Source: Singulisphaera sp. GP187 (GTDB lineage Bacteria > Planctomycetota > Phycisphaerae > Phycisphaerales > SM1A02). Taken from it: DNA of 64,000 nucleotides. The notes beneath the pieces are model-generated. The model saw nothing but the letters and a program-made list of their open reading frames with translations. It made no database searches and had not been told where the DNA came from. The stretch is taken from the NCBI GenBank assembly GCA_945869475.1, contig CAMBOV010000001.1:248001-312000 (forward strand), given 5' to 3'. Every line of letters begins with the position of its first letter. The first letter of the stretch is position 1. Shown here one piece after another: positions 20,866-28,740 of the stretch. Both the position numbers and the translations under genes were made by a program.

Positions 20866-21558
20866 TTGCGCCGGCGAGCGATTCCATTGTTCGCGCGGGT
20901 GCTCGATCGACCACTCGTGGGTCCATCGATTCTCTCAGCCGATTTCGCTCACCTCGGTCGTGAAGTGAAGGCTGTCTTGCGCGGTGGGGCTGACTACATC
21001 CATGTCGATGTGATGGATGGTCACTTCGTGCGCAATCTCTCGATGGGTCCCGCCATCTGCGCGGCCGTTCGTCGCGCGGCGCCTCGCGCATGGATTGATG
21101 TGCACTTGATGGTCACCGATCCTGCTGAGTTCATCGATCCATTCATCGACGCAGGTGCGAATCACATCTCACTGCACATCGAGAGCGTGCGCAAGCCAGC
21201 GGCACTCATTCGCAAGATTCAATCACGCGCAGCCACGGCCGGAATCGCATTGAAACCAGAAACGCCGTGGAAGGCAGTGGCTTCGCTCTTCATGCTCGCT
21301 GACCTCTTCTTAGTCATGAGCGTGCATCCAGGTTTCAGCGGGCAGAAATTTCTGCCAAGCGCGCTTGCGAAAGTACGGGCGATTCGCGCGCGGATTTCAG
21401 ATCGGCAACGCGTCGAACTCGATGGAGGAGTGAACCCGAGCAACGCACGCGCGTGCATCGACGCAGGATGCGATGCACTCGTTTCAGGATCGGTGATCTT
21501 CGCGTCGGACAATTACACCAAGGTGATCACGCAACTTCGCGCAGGGTCCGGTCGTTAG
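20866..21558 (+). CDS. rpe: ribulose-phosphate 3-epimerase
   Basis: A 230-residue TIM-barrel enzyme interconverting ribulose 5-phosphate and xylulose 5-phosphate. Family motifs: GPSILSADFAHLGREV, ADYIHVDVMDGHFVRNLSMG, WIDVHLMVTDP, FLVMSVHPGFSGQKF, VELDGGVNPSNA and DALVSGSVIF, carrying the catalytic Asp pair and the metal-binding His residues. The start is TTG at 20866, two bases behind the upstream stop, giving an N-terminal extension of about 18 residues compared with E. coli; a later start cannot be excluded. It ends ten bases before accD. Confidence 0.96.
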   Translation: MRRRAIPLFARVLDRPLVGPSILSADFAHLGREVKAVLRGGADYIHVDVMDGHFVRNLSMGPAICAAVRRAAPRAWIDVHLMVTDPAEFIDPFIDAGANHISLHIESVRKPAALIRKIQSRAATAGIALKPETPWKAVASLFMLADLFLVMSVHPGFSGQKFLPSALAKVRAIRARISDRQRVELDGGVNPSNARACIDAGCDALVSGSVIFASDNYTKVITQLRAGSGR

Positions 21559-21568
21559 GATGTGCGCC

Positions 21569-22405
21569 ATGGCCGAGCCGACATGGGAAGTGGCGCAGAG
21601 CGCAATGACAAAGCGTGCCGTCCCAGACGGTTTGTGGATGCAGTGCCCATCGTGCGGCGAGACTCTCTTTACGAAGGCCGTTGCGCAGAATCTCAATGTC
21701 TGCCCCCGCTGCGATTATCACATGCGCATCTCAGGGCGCGAGCGCATCGAGCAGTTGCTCGATCCTGGCACCTTTGAGCCAATGAACGCGCATATGGCGC
21801 CGTGCGACCCTCTTGAGTTTTCAGATCTCAAGGCCTATCGAGATCGAATCACTCAGGCGCAGAAGCAGACGGGTGAGAATGACGGCGTTCAGACTGGCAC
21901 TGGATTCATCAAGGGGCGAAAGGTCGTCGTCGCTGCGATGGATTTCACCTTTCTCGCGGGGTCGATGGGATCGGTCGTTGGTGAAAAAATTACCTGCGCG
22001 ATCGAGCACGCGACCGATCACGGACTTCCGTTGGTCATCGTCTGCTGCTCGGGCGGTGCGCGCATGCAGGAGTCGGGATTTTCGTTGATGCAAATGGCCA
22101 AGACAAGTGCGGCGCTCGCGCGACATGACGACGCAAAGGGAGTCTTCATTTCGGTCTTGACCGATCCAACCACAGGCGGAGTCACCGCAAGCTTTGCTAT
22201 GTTGGGTGACGTAATTTTTGCCGAACCCAAAGCGCTCATCGGCTTCGCGGGACCGCGGGTGATCCGACAGACAATTCGGCAAGAGCTGCCCGAAGATTTT
22301 CAGACGAGTGAGTTCTTGCTCTCGTGCGGATTCATTGACCGAATCGTTCATCGCGCGAATCTGCGAAGCGAGCTCAGTCGCGTCATCGATTACTCAGGGA
22401 ACTAG
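21569..22405 (+). CDS. accD: acetyl-CoA carboxylase carboxyltransferase subunit beta
   Basis: A 278-residue subunit of the carboxyltransferase that makes malonyl-CoA for fatty-acid synthesis. The N-terminal zinc ribbon is CPSC...CPRC at about residues 26-48 with the usual spacing. The carboxylase core has FLAGSMGSVVGEKIT, LVIVCCSGGARMQES, LTDPTTGGVTASFAMLGD and FAGPRVIRQTI. ATG 21569 with AGGA eight bases upstream (overlapping the rpe stop) is preferred over ATG 21560. The partner accA is not in this window. It is followed three bases later by lnt. Confidence 0.96.
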   Translation: MAEPTWEVAQSAMTKRAVPDGLWMQCPSCGETLFTKAVAQNLNVCPRCDYHMRISGRERIEQLLDPGTFEPMNAHMAPCDPLEFSDLKAYRDRITQAQKQTGENDGVQTGTGFIKGRKVVVAAMDFTFLAGSMGSVVGEKITCAIEHATDHGLPLVIVCCSGGARMQESGFSLMQMAKTSAALARHDDAKGVFISVLTDPTTGGVTASFAMLGDVIFAEPKALIGFAGPRVIRQTIRQELPEDFQTSEFLLSCGFIDRIVHRANLRSELSRVIDYSGN

Positions 22406-22408
22406 CGC

Positions 22409-25273
22409 GTGGATGCTCAGAGGCTCACACCACGACACGTGTGGCTCCTGGCAATCGGTCCGCCGCTCTGCACCGCGCTGGCGTTTCCTCCCTGTGGTCT
22501 CTGGTGGCTGACGTTCGTCGCTCTGACAGGATGGGTTGTGCTCGCCGCACTGCCGACACTCACGCGCACTACATGGGTCGCCGTCACAATGAGTTCACTC
22601 GCGATGTGGCTCTGGTTTCAACTCTGGGTGATCGATGTCGCAGTCGTTGGCTATCCATTCATGTGCCTCTACCTCGCGCTGTACGCACCGCTCTTTCTGT
22701 GGATCGCGCGTCGAGTCGCAGGTGGCAGTGTTGGTCGACGACTTCCATGGGCCGTGCTGACGCCACTGGTCGCCGTCACGGTTGAGTGGGTTCGCGGAGT
22801 CGTCGTCTTCAACGGATATCCGTGGTACTCGATTGGGCAACCCCTCATCGATTGCCCGCCGCTTGCGCAGATCGCAGACTTTGGCGGAACGCCGGCCGCG
22901 TCGTTTCTCGTCGCATCGGTGAGCGGCGGAGTTGTCGATGCAGTTCGCGGCAGGAGGGTGGGAATGGTCTTTGCGACCTGCGCACTCGCAGCATCACTTG
23001 GGTACGGGCTCTTCCGTCAGCACGAGAGTCAAACCTACCTCTCGAGCGGTCCGCGCATCCTTGCCGTGCAGACAAACATCACCACAGACAATAAGTTGGG
23101 GTGGCCCCGAGAGCGACAGGAATCGGACGTCGCCGAATTTGCGAGGATGACTTTCTCACTCGCGCACGAGGCGCGCGAACGCGGCGAAGCGATCGATCTG
23201 GTCGTCTGGCCAGAGACGATGCTGCCGGGCATGGGGCTCGAACCCGAGACGATCGCACTGATGACGGCGGGGGGATGGTGGCCCGGAGATCGATTTGCCA
23301 CGATCGCGCAGTTGATCGCGCAGCGGGTCGACGCACCGTTTCTTGTTGGAAGTCCGGCCTACATCGGACTGCGCGCCGAGAACGAACGGTGGGCCTGGGA
23401 TCAGCAATTCAACAGCGCGTACGTGCTCGATCCTCGCGGGCCGTCGCAGCGATATGACAAGATCTTTCTCACGCCCTTCGGCGAGACGATGCCGTACATC
23501 TCGAATTGGACGTGGCTCGAAACGAAACTGCTCGCTCTGGGCGCACGAGGGATGACCTTCGATCTCGATGCCTCGACTGAAGTGCGCAGACTCTCGTTCA
23601 CCTGGCGAGATGCGCCAGAGGGTCAGCAGCTCATCGAATTCGCGACTCCCATTTGCTTCGAGGACACCGTCGCGCCACTGGTTCGACAACTCGTCTACGA
23701 CCACGAGCACGTGAAGCGCGCGCAACTCATCGTGAACCTTTCGAACGATGGGTGGTTTGGATTCAGCGACGCCGGACGCGCGCAACACGCGCTCATCGCC
23801 CGTTGGCGGTGCATCGAGAATCGCGTACCGATGGTGCGCGTTGCGAACACTGGAATCTCTCAAGGATTCACGAGCATGGGTGCGCCGATCGAGGGCGCCC
23901 TCTGCCCCGCACGCACGGCTGGAGGATTCACTCTCTGCGCGCAACTTGACTCGCGCGAGACCCTTTTCGGTCGATGGGGCGATGTAGGATCGCCTCTCAT
24001 GTCGTTCGTCACACTTTTTCTGTTGGTGAGATGGAACCGCTGCAGCGCACGCGTCGCGAATTCATCAGCGTCTGCAATGGCTGTACTGCTTGGCACATCG
24101 ATCGCACTCCTCTTTCCTGGTTGCACCCCGTCGCAAACGAGTCCGTCCGCTGCAGCGACGACATCGTGGAGTTCGCGACCGCCCAAAGTCGATCCCAGCA
24201 TGTCGATTCGTGAGCCAGCGCCCATCGATGTCACGGTCGAGATTACTCCCACCGAAGTTGTGGTGGTCGAAGAGGTCGCCATTGAGAACACCCCAGAGGC
24301 GCTGCCGCCTGCGAGCACAGAGAGCGCGTCGATCGCGATGCGTGCTGGCAAGACTCCAGCACAGTTGGCACTCGACATTCTTGTCGCGGCCTCGTCGAGC
24401 CAAGAAGCGATCTACCGCGCGCATGCCCTCGAAGGGTTGCAGCCTTGTCCGGCGGAACTTGAGCCAGCGGCCTTTCGACTTCTCGCAGACGAGAATCCGG
24501 GCGTTCGATTTGCTGCAGCGGTGACCGTTGGACGCAATCGCTTTGCGCAGTGCGCACAGGTCGTTGAACCGCTCACGCTCGATCCAAATCTGTCGGTACG
24601 TGCTGCGGCGCTGTATGCGCTCGTTCGACTCGGTCGCGTGGTTGATCTCACGCCGTTGGCGCAACTCATGATGAGCGAAGACGCGGATGTGCGATCGAAT
24701 GCGTTCTTTGTGCTCGGTGAGTTGCGCAATCCATCAGCGATTCCGCTTGTCGAGAGTGCCGTGGGGCGACCGTTGATCGGGGCCGATCGCACGCGCGCGC
24801 GCATCGTCGACCTGCAGGGCGCCGAGGCGATGGCGAAGATGGGTGACTACCGACAGTTCGATCCAATTCGTGCTGCGCTCTTTGCGCCGAGCGATCAGTC
24901 AGAAATCGTTGCGCTCGCTTGCCAAATGGTTGGTGAGATCGATGACCGAGGAGCTCGTGGCCATCTCATCGGCCTCTGGAATGGAAGGGACCAACTGCAG
25001 AAACCGCTCGAAGTCCGCCTGATCGTCGGCACCGCGCTCGTTCGGATCGGCGAGCCAAATCTTGAGCCGATCCTTCAACTCTGCGTGACATCGAGCAAGG
25101 ATCCTTCACCCTCAGTGCGAGCGCAAACGGCTGCAACCCTTGGGTGGGTTGGCGGTCCTCAGGCGATTGCGCTCCTTAGCGGCGCGATGGCAGACCCCGT
25201 GCCAATTGTTCGCCTGACCGCTGCCGCTGGCTACATGCGGGCGACAACCAAGTCCGGCGGAAACGGCGGGTAA
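22409..25273 (+). CDS. lnt: apolipoprotein N-acyltransferase continuing into a HEAT-repeat domain
   Basis: A 954-codon frame. Residues 1-545 are a complete Lnt, which N-acylates lipoproteins at the inner membrane: several N-terminal membrane helices, then a nitrilase domain with the catalytic triad E269 (VVWPETMLPG), K351 (YDKIFLTPFGE) and C416 (PICFED), and a last membrane helix around 529-541. The frame does not stop. Instead comes a second hydrophobic stretch M557-AVLLGTSIALLFPGC ending in a lipobox-like Cys572, a disordered linker, and from about residue 650 a set of HEAT-like helical repeats (ENPGVRFAAAVTVGR, DPNLSVRAAALYALVRLG, EDADVRSNAFFVLGEL, DPVPIVRLTAAAGYM). It may be a true fusion, or a lipoprotein may be started internally at ATG 24077. 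The GTG start at 22409 is three bases after accD. Confidence 0.88.
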   Translation: MDAQRLTPRHVWLLAIGPPLCTALAFPPCGLWWLTFVALTGWVVLAALPTLTRTTWVAVTMSSLAMWLWFQLWVIDVAVVGYPFMCLYLALYAPLFLWIARRVAGGSVGRRLPWAVLTPLVAVTVEWVRGVVVFNGYPWYSIGQPLIDCPPLAQIADFGGTPAASFLVASVSGGVVDAVRGRRVGMVFATCALAASLGYGLFRQHESQTYLSSGPRILAVQTNITTDNKLGWPRERQESDVAEFARMTFSLAHEARERGEAIDLVVWPETMLPGMGLEPETIALMTAGGWWPGDRFATIAQLIAQRVDAPFLVGSPAYIGLRAENERWAWDQQFNSAYVLDPRGPSQRYDKIFLTPFGETMPYISNWTWLETKLLALGARGMTFDLDASTEVRRLSFTWRDAPEGQQLIEFATPICFEDTVAPLVRQLVYDHEHVKRAQLIVNLSNDGWFGFSDAGRAQHALIARWRCIENRVPMVRVANTGISQGFTSMGAPIEGALCPARTAGGFTLCAQLDSRETLFGRWGDVGSPLMSFVTLFLLVRWNRCSARVANSSASAMAVLLGTSIALLFPGCTPSQTSPSAAATTSWSSRPPKVDPSMSIREPAPIDVTVEITPTEVVVVEEVAIENTPEALPPASTESASIAMRAGKTPAQLALDILVAASSSQEAIYRAHALEGLQPCPAELEPAAFRLLADENPGVRFAAAVTVGRNRFAQCAQVVEPLTLDPNLSVRAAALYALVRLGRVVDLTPLAQLMMSEDADVRSNAFFVLGELRNPSAIPLVESAVGRPLIGADRTRARIVDLQGAEAMAKMGDYRQFDPIRAALFAPSDQSEIVALACQMVGEIDDRGARGHLIGLWNGRDQLQKPLEVRLIVGTALVRIGEPNLEPILQLCVTSSKDPSPSVRAQTAATLGWVGGPQAIALLSGAMADPVPIVRLTAAAGYMRATTKSGGNGG

Positions 25274-25287
25274 CGAGCGTCGAGTCG

Positions 25288-25316
25288 TTGACATCAACGG
25301 GGGGTGGAGGTAAAAC
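25288..25316 (+). promoter_or_regulatory. candidate sigma70 promoter ahead of the mre cluster
   Basis: TTGACA at 25288-25293 matches the -35 consensus exactly. A 17-base spacer leads to TAAAAC at 25311-25316, which matches four of six -10 bases. It lies just after the lnt stop and about 85 bases before the preferred GTG start of the coiled-coil gene, so it could drive the run of genes from 25400 onward. This is by-eye matching only. Confidence 0.4.
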
Positions 25317-25399
25317 AGAAGGTCTGTTGGATGGTCGGCGAATCGCCGAGCTTCCGAGTCTGTGTCCTGAGTGATCTCCAAACCCAATTAGGTCCACAC

Positions 25400-26293
25400 G
25401 TGCATATTCTGACGAAAGTATTTGTTGTTCTCGTTTCCCTTCTTGCGGTCGCTCTTGTTCCACTCGTCGCAGTGCAGAGCATGAATCAGGCAGCACTCCG
25501 CCAGCAAGTCAGTGACAAGGATGGCGCAGTCACTTCGGCCCGCCGCGAACTCGACTCCGAACGGGCCCTTCGTGCCAAGTCAGAGAACGACACAGCACTT
25601 CAACTCAAAGACCTCGACAGTGAGAAGAACCGATTGCAGTCTGCCGTCGAAGAGGGAACTTCGCGCGTGCGTGCACTCGAAGGAGAACTGGCTCAGTCGG
25701 AGATTCGACGAACCAGCCTCGAGCAGACCGTCTCTGTCATGATTGAGACCGACCGCACGAAGACCGAGTTGACCCGCACGCTCACCGAAGAGTTGGATTC
25801 TCAGCGCTCGCTCGTCACCGACTGCGAGAAGGTTCGCATTGACATTGAGCAGAAGCTCGGAAAGACCGATAGCGATCTGCGCGTGGCACAAGAGGCTGTG
25901 GGCGATCTCAAGGAGCAGGTTGCATCACTGAGTTCAGAGAAGACTAAGTCGGACCAAGTTGTCCGCGACTACTCGGCTCGATTTGGATCGGTCGCACCCG
26001 ACGCCGCGGCTGGAAGTGATTCATCCACAGTGGCCGATCGCGACCTCACCGCACGCATCGTGAATGTGCGGCGCACCGATGACGCTGTCTACGCCGAGAT
26101 CGACGCGGGCAGTCGCGATGGGATCAAGCAGGGATGGACGCTGACAATCGGCGACGGTTCTCGATTCATCGGAAAGGTTCGCATCACCTCGGTGGATGTC
26201 AACAAGTCTGTCGGCACGGTCGAGCTCGAAGATGCCGCGGGACGCGGTCCCGTGCGAGTCGGTCAGCGAGTGACCGTGCGCCGCGGACAGTAA
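25400..26293 (+). CDS. membrane-anchored coiled-coil protein with MreC-like C-terminal domain
   Basis: A 297-residue protein: one N-terminal membrane helix (ILTKVFVVLVSLLAVALVPLVAV), a long coiled coil from about 30 to 195 rich in Glu/Gln/Lys/Arg heptads, and a small beta-rich end with YAEIDAGSRDGIKQGWTLTI and FIGKVRITSVDVNKSVGTVE. The end resembles the beta domains of MreC (AGSxxGIxxGDxV...VGxV). The GTG at 25400 is chosen because AGGT lies about six bases upstream and it gives a clean anchor; ATG 25304 would add 32 polar residues. Sitting ahead of mreB, it is probably part of the cell-shape machinery. No named family was recognised, so this role is inferred from position and fold. Confidence 0.75.
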   Translation: MHILTKVFVVLVSLLAVALVPLVAVQSMNQAALRQQVSDKDGAVTSARRELDSERALRAKSENDTALQLKDLDSEKNRLQSAVEEGTSRVRALEGELAQSEIRRTSLEQTVSVMIETDRTKTELTRTLTEELDSQRSLVTDCEKVRIDIEQKLGKTDSDLRVAQEAVGDLKEQVASLSSEKTKSDQVVRDYSARFGSVAPDAAAGSDSSTVADRDLTARIVNVRRTDDAVYAEIDAGSRDGIKQGWTLTIGDGSRFIGKVRITSVDVNKSVGTVELEDAAGRGPVRVGQRVTVRRGQ

Positions 26294-26306
26294 CGAGTTC
26301 GAAACC

Positions 26307-26348
26307 AAGACCAAGAACAAGATCAAGAACAAGATCAAGATCAAGAAC
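26307..26348 (+). repeat. seven tandem AAGAMC hexamers
   Basis: Seven consecutive six-base units read AAGACC, AAGAAC, AAGATC, AAGAAC, AAGATC, AAGATC, AAGAAC. They fill most of the spacer between the coiled-coil gene and the small membrane protein gene, directly ahead of its AAAGGA ribosome binding site. The stretch is poor in T and G, so it should stay unpaired in mRNA; it may aid ribosome loading or be a slippage-prone microsatellite. Confidence 0.85.
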
Positions 26349-26361
26349 AAAGGATCTCACA

Positions 26362-26739
26362 ATGGCATTCCTCGGCATCGGTAAAAAGTCAGTCAAGCCC
26401 GTCGCAGCATCGGCGTCCGCTGCCAATGGCAGCGGCGGAAGTGGCTTTGGCGATGCACTGGGCGGCAGCGGCGGCAGTCCAGCAGTTGCCACGCCAGCGA
26501 AGTCTGGCAAGAAGGGCCTCTTCGCAGCGAAGGCAAAGTCTGCCCCCGCTGCAAAGTCACAGGCAGGAAAGCCAAAGGCTCGCGCGGTCGGCGGGGATCT
26601 CGATATCTACACAGCAGTGCTCGTCGCCGCTGTTCTGGCACTCGCTGCAGGATGCGTTTTCGTTGCGTTGGACAACCTCGCTGGGGTCGAAGGCACCTCG
26701 GACGCTGGGAATCCATTTGTTGTTCTCTCTTCTCGCTGA
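26362..26739 (+). CDS. small single-pass membrane protein of the mre cluster
   Basis: A 125-residue protein of unknown family. It begins MAFLGIGKKSVK, continues with a low-complexity Ala/Gly/Ser/Lys-rich region of about 75 residues that is probably disordered and basic, then DLDIYTAVLVAAVLALAAGCVFVALDNL, a membrane helix, and a short outer tail. ATG 26362 has AAAGGA seven bases upstream, which decides the start; the frame is open further upstream but that part is the antisense-free hexamer repeat. It lies between the coiled-coil gene and mreB. A basic cytoplasmic tail plus one helix is what a membrane adaptor would look like, but this is speculation. Confidence 0.7.
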   Translation: MAFLGIGKKSVKPVAASASAANGSGGSGFGDALGGSGGSPAVATPAKSGKKGLFAAKAKSAPAAKSQAGKPKARAVGGDLDIYTAVLVAAVLALAAGCVFVALDNLAGVEGTSDAGNPFVVLSSR

Positions 26740-26781
26740 GAGGAGCTGGTCCGTCGTCACAGGCCAAGGAGGTGGCCGAAT

Positions 26782-27849
26782 ATGGGTCTAGAGAAGATGA
26801 TCGGTTGGTTTAGCGTGGATATGGGAATTGATCTGGGGACATGCAACACATTGGTCTGCGTTCGTGGCGAGGGGATTGTGCTCAATGAGCCATCCGTCGT
26901 CGCAGTTCGCAAGGGCACAAATCAAGTCTTGATGAATGGAACCGCCGTTGGTTTCGCTGCGAAAGAGATGCTTGGCCGTACGCCTGGGTCGATCCAGGCG
27001 ATCCGTCCATTGAAGGACGGCGTCATCTCTGACTTCGAAATCACCGAGGCGATGTTGAAGTACTTCATCCAAAAGGTGATGGGTCGAAGCCGAATCTTTG
27101 GACCGCGGGTTGTCATTTCGATTCCATCAGGAATCACCGCGGTTGAAAAACGCGCGGTGCTCGATAGTGCCGAACGGGCCGGCGCGCGCAAGGTTTTCCT
27201 GCTCGAAGAGCCCATGGCCGCCGCGATGGGTGCCAACCTTCCATTTGATGAGGCGACTGCAAGCATGGTCGTCGACATCGGCGGCGGCACCAGTGAAATC
27301 GCAATTCTGAGTCTCGCGGACATCGCGAAAGCGTCGAGTTTGCGCGTGGCAGGTGACGACTTCGATGAGGCGATCATCCGTTACCTCGAAGAGAAGCGCG
27401 GATTGCGCGTCGGAGAGCAGACCTCTGAGCAAATCAAGATTCGAATCGGAAGTGCGTGGCCACTCCCCGAAGAACTTGCGATGAAAGTGCGAGGACGAGA
27501 TGTCGCGAGTGGACTTCCTCGTCAAATCGAAGTGAATTCAGTCGAGATCCGCGAGGCGCTCGCCGAACCCCTCAAAAAGATTGCCGACGAAGTCGTCAAG
27601 ACGCTGCGCGAAGCCGATCCTGAACTTGCAGCAGATCTCTGCAACCCTGATCTTCCACACAATGGAATCACCGTTGCCGGTGGAGGTGCATTGCTGCGAG
27701 GCATCGATCAAATGTTCGCAGATCGCACGGGCCTCACCGTCAAGATCGCAGACGATCCGCTCACGTGTGTCGCTCGCGGAACGGCGCTCTACCTCGAAAA
27801 CCTTGAGCAGTACAAGTCGATTCTCGAATCGAATGTCGAGGAACTCTGA
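26782..27849 (+). CDS. mreB: rod shape-determining protein MreB
   Basis: A 355-residue bacterial actin. The phosphate-1 motif is GIDLGTCNTLVCV near residue 15, the connecting and phosphate-2 motifs are VISIPSGITAVEKRAV and VVDIGGGTSEIAIL near residue 170, and the adenosine motif is GITVAGGGALLRG near residue 290. The body follows MreB throughout (GRTPGSIQAIRPLKDGVISDFE). An AGGAGG ribosome binding site lies about ten bases upstream of the ATG. It forms membrane filaments that direct lateral wall synthesis. It is followed by mreC and mreD in the classical order. Confidence 0.97.
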   Translation: MGLEKMIGWFSVDMGIDLGTCNTLVCVRGEGIVLNEPSVVAVRKGTNQVLMNGTAVGFAAKEMLGRTPGSIQAIRPLKDGVISDFEITEAMLKYFIQKVMGRSRIFGPRVVISIPSGITAVEKRAVLDSAERAGARKVFLLEEPMAAAMGANLPFDEATASMVVDIGGGTSEIAILSLADIAKASSLRVAGDDFDEAIIRYLEEKRGLRVGEQTSEQIKIRIGSAWPLPEELAMKVRGRDVASGLPRQIEVNSVEIREALAEPLKKIADEVVKTLREADPELAADLCNPDLPHNGITVAGGGALLRGIDQMFADRTGLTVKIADDPLTCVARGTALYLENLEQYKSILESNVEEL

Positions 27850-27867
27850 GTTCACACGAACACTCTT

Positions 27868-27887
27868 GATCATGGATGATCATGGAT
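27868..27887 (+). repeat. 10-base tandem duplication at the mreC start
   Basis: GATCATGGAT occurs twice without interruption at 27868-27877 and 27878-27887; the second copy runs into the ATG used as the mreC start (27886). Two out-of-frame ATGs lie within the repeat, which may affect initiation. Probably a recent slip duplication. Confidence 0.9.
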
Positions 27888-28740
27888 GCTCACGGTGCGC
27901 CGCATTCCTCCTCTTGCTCTGGTTGTCACGCTGATTGTGCTTCTGGGTCTCTGCCCGACTCGGTGGATCGCTCCGCTGACCGGTGATCTCTCGTCGGTGC
28001 TCTGGGTGCCGCTCTCGCCGCTTTCACACGGCGCAACCGCTGCACGGCTCTGGCTTCGCCCGCGACCCAACACTCCGTCGATCGATGAGGCAACGGCCGT
28101 TGCAGAGCGTGAGTACTACCGAGGACTCTGGCATGCAGAGCGCATTCAAACCGAACTGCTCGAGAAGAAGTTGCGACTCTATGAGGTGACGGTCGGTGGT
28201 GCTTCACGCGGAGTTGCGGTGCGACTCGCGAGCGCGAATGTGATCTCGCGCACGCCAGGATCGGGCGGCCTCGCACTGAAAGTGAATGTCGGATCGCAGC
28301 ATGGAATCGCCGCGGGAGATATCGCTGTCGTTGATGGAGATGCAATTGTGGGCCGTGTTGCCCCGGAAGTTGGCGCAGTGACGAGCGTCGTCGTCTCGAT
28401 GGCTGATCGTTCGGTGGGGCGATTCGATGCCTACATCGTGCCAGCTGCGCAGGAGAAATCGAATCGTCCGCAGGTGATCCCGGTGCAGTTGATCGGAGAT
28501 GGAACGGGTCAGGTGCGCGGAGACATCGACCTTCCAAGCGGTGTGCGACCAGGGGATCTCGTGCGACTCAAAGACTCGCAGTGGCCACGTGGGGCGCAAG
28601 GGATGCGCGTCGGCGTCGTCACCGAGGTCAAACGCAAAGACGCGCAGCCGCTGCGCGGTGAGGTCTTCGTGCAGCCGGCAATCGATCCAGCAATGGTTGG
28701 AGAACTCGTGCTCAAGCTCAGTGCGGGGTCGACGCAATGA
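27886..28740 (+). CDS. mreC: rod shape-determining protein MreC
   Basis: A 284-residue membrane-anchored protein: one N-terminal helix (LALVVTLIVLLGLCP), a short helical stretch with AVAEREYYRGLWHAERIQTELLEKKLRLYE, then the MreC beta domains: SRTPGSGGLALKVNVGSQHGIAAGDIAVVDGDAIVGRVAPEVGAVTSVVVSMAD is the characteristic part from about residue 125. Divergent from the E. coli protein but in the right place behind mreB. It scaffolds wall synthesis enzymes in the periplasm. Start ATG 27886 sits in a 10-base tandem repeat and has no good ribosome binding site, so initiation could be elsewhere. The stop overlaps the mreD ATG (ATGA). Confidence 0.85.
   Translation: MLTVRRIPPLALVVTLIVLLGLCPTRWIAPLTGDLSSVLWVPLSPLSHGATAARLWLRPRPNTPSIDEATAVAEREYYRGLWHAERIQTELLEKKLRLYEVTVGGASRGVAVRLASANVISRTPGSGGLALKVNVGSQHGIAAGDIAVVDGDAIVGRVAPEVGAVTSVVVSMADRSVGRFDAYIVPAAQEKSNRPQVIPVQLIGDGTGQVRGDIDLPSGVRPGDLVRLKDSQWPRGAQGMRVGVVTEVKRKDAQPLRGEVFVQPAIDPAMVGELVLKLSAGSTQ

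Follow-up and report, generated by a model that had tools for sequence, protein, structure and literature searches.

A conserved reading frame joining apolipoprotein N-acyltransferase to a HEAT-repeat domain through an internal lipobox-like motif in Phycisphaerales

A polytopic membrane protein and an exported protein can be made as one chain, as in Bradyrhizobium, where the cytochrome b / cytochrome c1 precursor (fbcH) is cut at an internal signal peptide. In lipoprotein maturation, Lgt and LspA act at the outer face of the membrane. Fusions of apolipoprotein N-acyltransferase (Lnt) are already known from the mycobacterial Lnt-Ppm protein (Rv2051c / BCG_2070c, PMC3850990). E. coli Lnt, from which the residue numbers K335 and C387 are taken, has both termini in the cytoplasm (PMC5500888).

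Here an lnt frame that continues into HEAT repeats is described from the window (the whole stretch of 64,000 nucleotides that was analysed), which belongs to a genome deposited as Singulisphaera sp. GP187. Its product shares the membrane domain, the nitrilase domain, the Glu/Lys/Cys triad and the last transmembrane (TM) helix with E. coli Lnt (PDB 5n6h). However, E. coli Lnt stops after its eighth helix in the cytoplasm, whereas the window protein adds a turn, a predicted ninth helix that carries the lipobox and a HEAT domain.

The fused frame and its parts

The fused frame begins with GTG downstream of the accD frame and runs through 954 codons without an internal stop (Table 1). GC content is unchanged across the lnt/HEAT junction, and no promoter-like or terminator-like site was found there. 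The Pfam domains are LNT_N (residues 21-173), CN_hydrolase (239-486) and HEAT_2 / HEAT (within about 690-940). The Lnt part passes the Lnt equivalog model TIGR00546 of NCBIfam (220 bits, cut-off 132.9) and Pfam LNT_N (71 bits, cut-off 27.1), and is the single LNT_N match in the genome. A single-sequence phmmer search of the Lnt part against the PDB gave no match at 1e-3 and a profile was required; the profile recovers Lnt entries of known structure, in which K351 and C416 pair with E. coli K335 and C387 (5n6h), while E269 is assigned only by motif and by alignment within the family. No exception to the triad occurs among 56 fused and 20 separate homologues at the columns that they cover. Thus, the full Lnt with triad E269, K351 and C416 that an earlier note had read from the sequence of the window is confirmed, as are its second helix ending in LFPGC (Cys572) and the linker and HEAT repeats that follow in the same frame, since positions and domains agree.

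The HEAT part is modelled confidently by AlphaFold2 as a solenoid of 18 helices. A Foldseek search with this model returned only generic HEAT/alphaRep-like proteins, with no functional hint. NblB and TIGR02270 were tried for the HEAT part and rejected, as their matches are far under the cut-off. The full-length AlphaFold2 model (nine sequences) has a pLDDT of 48, too poor for topology, and its TM helices are of low confidence. Between the predicted lipid anchor and the HEAT domain lies an otherwise variable linker with a W[SG][ST][RK] motif, found in 55/56 fused proteins and, in a slightly wider pattern, in 11 separate family members. This putative binding site is WSSR in the window.

Table 1. 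Positions of the lnt-HEAT frame and its features in the window.
Feature	Position	Strand	Evidence
lnt-HEAT fused ORF, 954 aa + stop	22409..25273	+	same single frame in 56 genomes, the window included
Lnt part, residues 1-546: membrane domain, nitrilase domain, last TM helix ~529-546	22409..24046	+	Pfam, TIGR00546 and PDB profile match; helix limits from a low-confidence model
Catalytic Glu269	23213..23215	+	invariant in all fused and separate homologues that cover the site
Catalytic Lys351 (E. coli K335)	23459..23461	+	profile alignment to 5n6h and homologue conservation
Catalytic Cys416 (E. coli C387)	23654..23656	+	profile alignment to 5n6h and homologue conservation
Positively charged turn from last Lnt helix to second helix (VRWNRCSARVANSSA), expected to be cytoplasmic	24029..24073	+	3 K/R, 0 D/E in the window
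Second hydrophobic helix, residues 553-571, putative internal lipoprotein signal peptide	24065..24121	+	model helix 553-567 (low confidence); hydrophobic in every fused member
Internal ATG (Met557), proposed start, unsupported	24077..24079	+	no Shine-Dalgarno site, no charged n-region, unconserved
Lipobox-like LFPGC with Cys572; predicted LspA cut before Cys572	24110..24124	+	Cys in 56/56; -1 residue G/A/S in 56/56
WSSR linker motif, residues 587-590	24167..24178	+	motif conservation in fused and separate family members
HEAT-repeat solenoid, residues 650-949	24356..25255	+	Pfam; AlphaFold2 model, pLDDT 90

Distribution and gene neighbourhood

The locus was compared in 60 relatives, the HEAT part was then searched in 181 genomes of the same family, and 40 further loci were read. 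With the window included, lnt and HEAT share one frame in 56 genomes from nine genera of the same Phycisphaerales family (g1, 17 genomes; g253, 15; g258, 11; g18, 6; g6, 3; g2, g16, g260 and g243, 1 each). In the window's genus the junction is open in 17/17 genomes that have it on one contig; G003 and G005, of the same genus, are broken by contig ends and cannot be judged. Among the first 60 loci, whenever both parts share a contig, HEAT lies in the lnt frame or starts within or directly after lnt. Several of the fused records stem from different, separately published MAG projects.

A stop codon missed through an error in sequencing or assembly, named in the earlier note as a ground for rejecting the fusion, might be suspected since the draft of the window genome has 32 contigs and relatives with separate genes exist. 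However, the same open junction recurs in 56 genomes of nine genera from several sampling projects, so the probability of a missed stop is practically nil. Relatives with two genes, the other ground named, are indeed found, but in outer lineages, where they show the source of the fusion. These outer relatives have two ORFs. Of 36 separate pairs, 31 have them in different frames, and stop and start codons often overlap by 4 bases. Two separate ORFs are probably the ancestral state.

In the Lnt+HEAT trees most fused genera fall in one region, G370 (g243) is placed elsewhere, and several deep nodes are weakly supported. Two genomes with separate lnt and HEAT, G034 of g17 (locus L092) and G480 of g259 (L175), are nested in or beside the fused clade; these may be fissions of a fused ancestor or signs of repeated fusion. 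The tree positions of g17, g259 and G370 call for two or more fusions, or for both a fusion and a fission. In a phylum sample of 294 genomes, no other C-terminal Lnt domain fusion was seen among the ten long frames read. Those ten Lnt frames, of 800-1160 aa, have their extra length upstream of Lnt (in one case this is in part a low-complexity tail). Near relatives (L133, L135 and L139) are deposited as 'Singulisphaera sp. GP187' and 'Planctomycetia bacterium', others as Phycisphaerales. As their loci are very similar, some of the record names appear to be wrong.

The gene order of the family is rpe, accD, lnt, HEAT, coiled-coil gene, mreB and mreC, and is kept in most family genomes (20866-28740 in the window). 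This cluster is likely one operon, joining lipoprotein maturation, fatty-acid synthesis and cell-shape genes. The HEAT gene adjoins lnt throughout the sampled order, which makes the HEAT lipoprotein a candidate functional partner of Lnt. The HEAT domain is also better conserved than Lnt (87% vs 71% to G018). Conservation of the neighbourhood together with that of the HEAT domain suggests that the HEAT lipoprotein matters, and that it works with Lnt or with the envelope growth machinery.

Separate HEAT genes beside lnt in the same order share with the fused form a homologous HEAT domain, the lipobox, the gene order and, within the family, a WS[ST][RK] motif. They differ in having their own start codon, mostly a Shine-Dalgarno site and a frame usually different from that of lnt, whereas fused HEAT lies in the lnt frame. 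Most HEAT ORFs of the separate family members have an ordinary lipoprotein signal and a lipobox of similar kind. In other families of the order (G056, L102; G040, L107; G052, L110) the HEAT gene has a signal without the lipobox Cys (AGA/AQ-type ends). Thus, the Cys can evidently be absent, and lipidation probably differs between lineages.

The junction and internal start codons

All 56 fused proteins have a Cys at the end of the second hydrophobic stretch, with Gly (43), Ala (11) or Ser (2) at -1. Mean identity over the 26 residues before the Cys is 17% between genera, and no column but the Cys is invariant from -26 to +15 in 21 fused members. Residue -3 is Leu, Ile or Val in 35/56 fused members. 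The lipobox that the earlier note had placed at the junction therefore stands as to Cys572 and the small residue at -1 (Gly in the window), which are kept, but the box of the window is relaxed rather than canonical, with Phe at -3 and Pro at -2; that of G018 is LAGC, close to canonical. In g258 and g253 (L149-L150, L162-L174) the lipobox Cys is often followed at once by Asp or Ser-Asp (CD.., CSD..). In E. coli an Asp at +2 retains lipoproteins in the inner membrane, and the HEAT lipoprotein may therefore be sorted differently in these two genera.

A positive n-region followed by a hydrophobic stretch is present, as an internal segment rather than at the protein N-terminus. Summed over the 56 fused members, the stretch from -34 to -13 holds 164 K/R against 5 D/E, a pattern that, as far as sequence can indicate, agrees with a cytoplasmic end of the last Lnt helix. 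Because of this charge and the cytoplasmic C-terminus of E. coli Lnt (PMC5500888), the second helix is predicted to point outward. A positive turn followed by another helix would thus place HEAT outside and the Cys at the outer face of the membrane. The genome holds one LGT match and one Peptidase_A8 (LspA) match, both above cut-off.

The earlier note had offered two readings of this frame: a true fusion, or a lipoprotein whose own start is the internal ATG at 24077. The latter reading is not supported in the window's genus, as this ATG is absent at that place in relatives, has no Shine-Dalgarno pairing (duplex energy +0.1 kcal/mol) and, 15 codons before the Cys, lies inside the helix, with no K/R after it within the signal and thus no positive n-region. 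In a more general form, two products could be made from one frame, the full-length Lnt-HEAT and a HEAT lipoprotein from some start codon inside lnt. Such an arrangement would resemble that of separate relatives, in which HEAT starts near the end of lnt and often overlaps it. In g18, all six members (L146-L148, L151, L157, L082) have an ATG 31 codons before the Cys, in the last Lnt helix, with strong pairing (-7.3 to -8.4 kcal/mol); this may be a coincidence of conserved codons or a real internal start. In-frame candidates with pairing of -5 kcal/mol or better are also found in G033, G370, G410, G412 and G416.

However, the window's genus has no conserved candidate, and no independent start for the HEAT part is indicated there by sequence. 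The best Shine-Dalgarno pairing at its in-frame starts 15-34 codons before the Cys (median -2.1 kcal/mol) is indistinguishable from that of random gene interiors (-2.4 kcal/mol, p=0.59), weaker than that of gene starts of the same loci (-3.9 kcal/mol, p=2e-4), and far weaker than that of the separate HEAT genes of the family (-7.6 kcal/mol, p=4e-5). The tests do not correct for relatedness, and the genus uses Shine-Dalgarno sites only modestly, so they support a single chain rather than prove it, and the absence of a Shine-Dalgarno site is the weaker evidence. The cases without any usable internal start appear to be stronger evidence for one chain than the pairing statistics. In 17/56 fused members there is no ATG, GTG or TTG at -30 to -15 with a charged n-region after it. 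None of these start codons occurs in G011 between the last Lnt helix and -13, in G467 between -37 and -12 or in G483 from -42 to -13. A second product from the same frame is thus considered quite unlikely.

The scarcity of efficient internal starts is also compatible with an uncut two-domain membrane protein, in which the second helix merely anchors HEAT close to the active site of Lnt, perhaps for the recruitment of substrates or partners, and the Cys is unprocessed or is lipidated without a cut. Joint work of the two domains is suggested by their being neighbours throughout the sampled order, and the non-canonical lipobox of the window also fits an uncut chain. However, an anchor needs neither the Cys nor a small residue at -1, and both are kept in every fused member while the helix sequence drifts. 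This is the main argument against an uncut fusion, which seems unlikely. The true-fusion reading of the earlier note, with HEAT exported on the second helix, is strongly supported by the single frame in 56 genomes and the kept junction Cys.

The polyprotein reading and known systems

The most economical account of the locus is a polyprotein. Lnt-HEAT is probably made as one chain; Lgt would lipidate it and LspA would cut it at the internal lipobox, after which Lnt would N-acylate the HEAT lipoprotein. The broader statement, that a maturation enzyme and one of its own substrates form a single polyprotein cut by the lipoprotein pathway at an internal lipobox and fixed across genera, is given a little better than an even chance.

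For topology, lipidation, cutting and acylation, we infer the following course. Lnt would insert in its normal topology, with the last helix running from periplasm to cytoplasm. After a short positive turn, the second helix would re-cross the membrane as an internal lipoprotein signal peptide and HEAT would be exported. Lgt would add diacylglycerol to Cys572 and LspA would cut before it, leaving Lnt with one extra C-terminal helix. The released HEAT lipoprotein would have a new N-terminal Cys, to be N-acylated by Lnt in cis or in trans, and enzyme and one substrate would be made 1:1. The fusion probably arose when the stop codon that separated lnt from an adjacent or overlapping gene for the HEAT lipoprotein was lost.

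No description of an Lnt-HEAT fusion was found in the literature searched, in which subscription journals are thinly covered, and the same literature gave no precedent for an internal lipobox in a polytopic protein or for LspA acting on such an internal signal. A search for polyprotein processing by a bacterial signal peptidase gave no relevant paper.

Cutting of the chain would mean that LspA accepts an internal signal within a polytopic membrane protein, a natural example of such action by signal peptidase II. Lipoproteins would then have to be sought more widely, since predictors that consider only the N-terminus miss internal ones, and annotation would label the fused gene simply 'Lnt'. 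Separation of Lnt from its partner would depend on Lgt and LspA, and the first molecule acylated by each Lnt may be its co-made partner. A key envelope enzyme would thus be tied to one partner at a fixed 1:1 ratio across whole genera.

The closest described Lnt fusion, Lnt-Ppm, is alike in that a second protein is fused to Lnt in one ORF and that related species have separate neighbouring genes. However, Lnt-Ppm adds a polyprenol-phosphate mannose synthase, whereas the addition in the window protein is a HEAT domain, predicted to be exported, that follows a lipobox and is itself probably a substrate of the enzyme. The fbcH precursor belongs to a respiratory complex and is cut by signal peptidase I, whereas the window protein contains a lipoprotein enzyme and would be cut by signal peptidase II. 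The parts are familiar; their combination, an enzyme and what is probably its own substrate within one conserved frame that retains the lipobox, is not.
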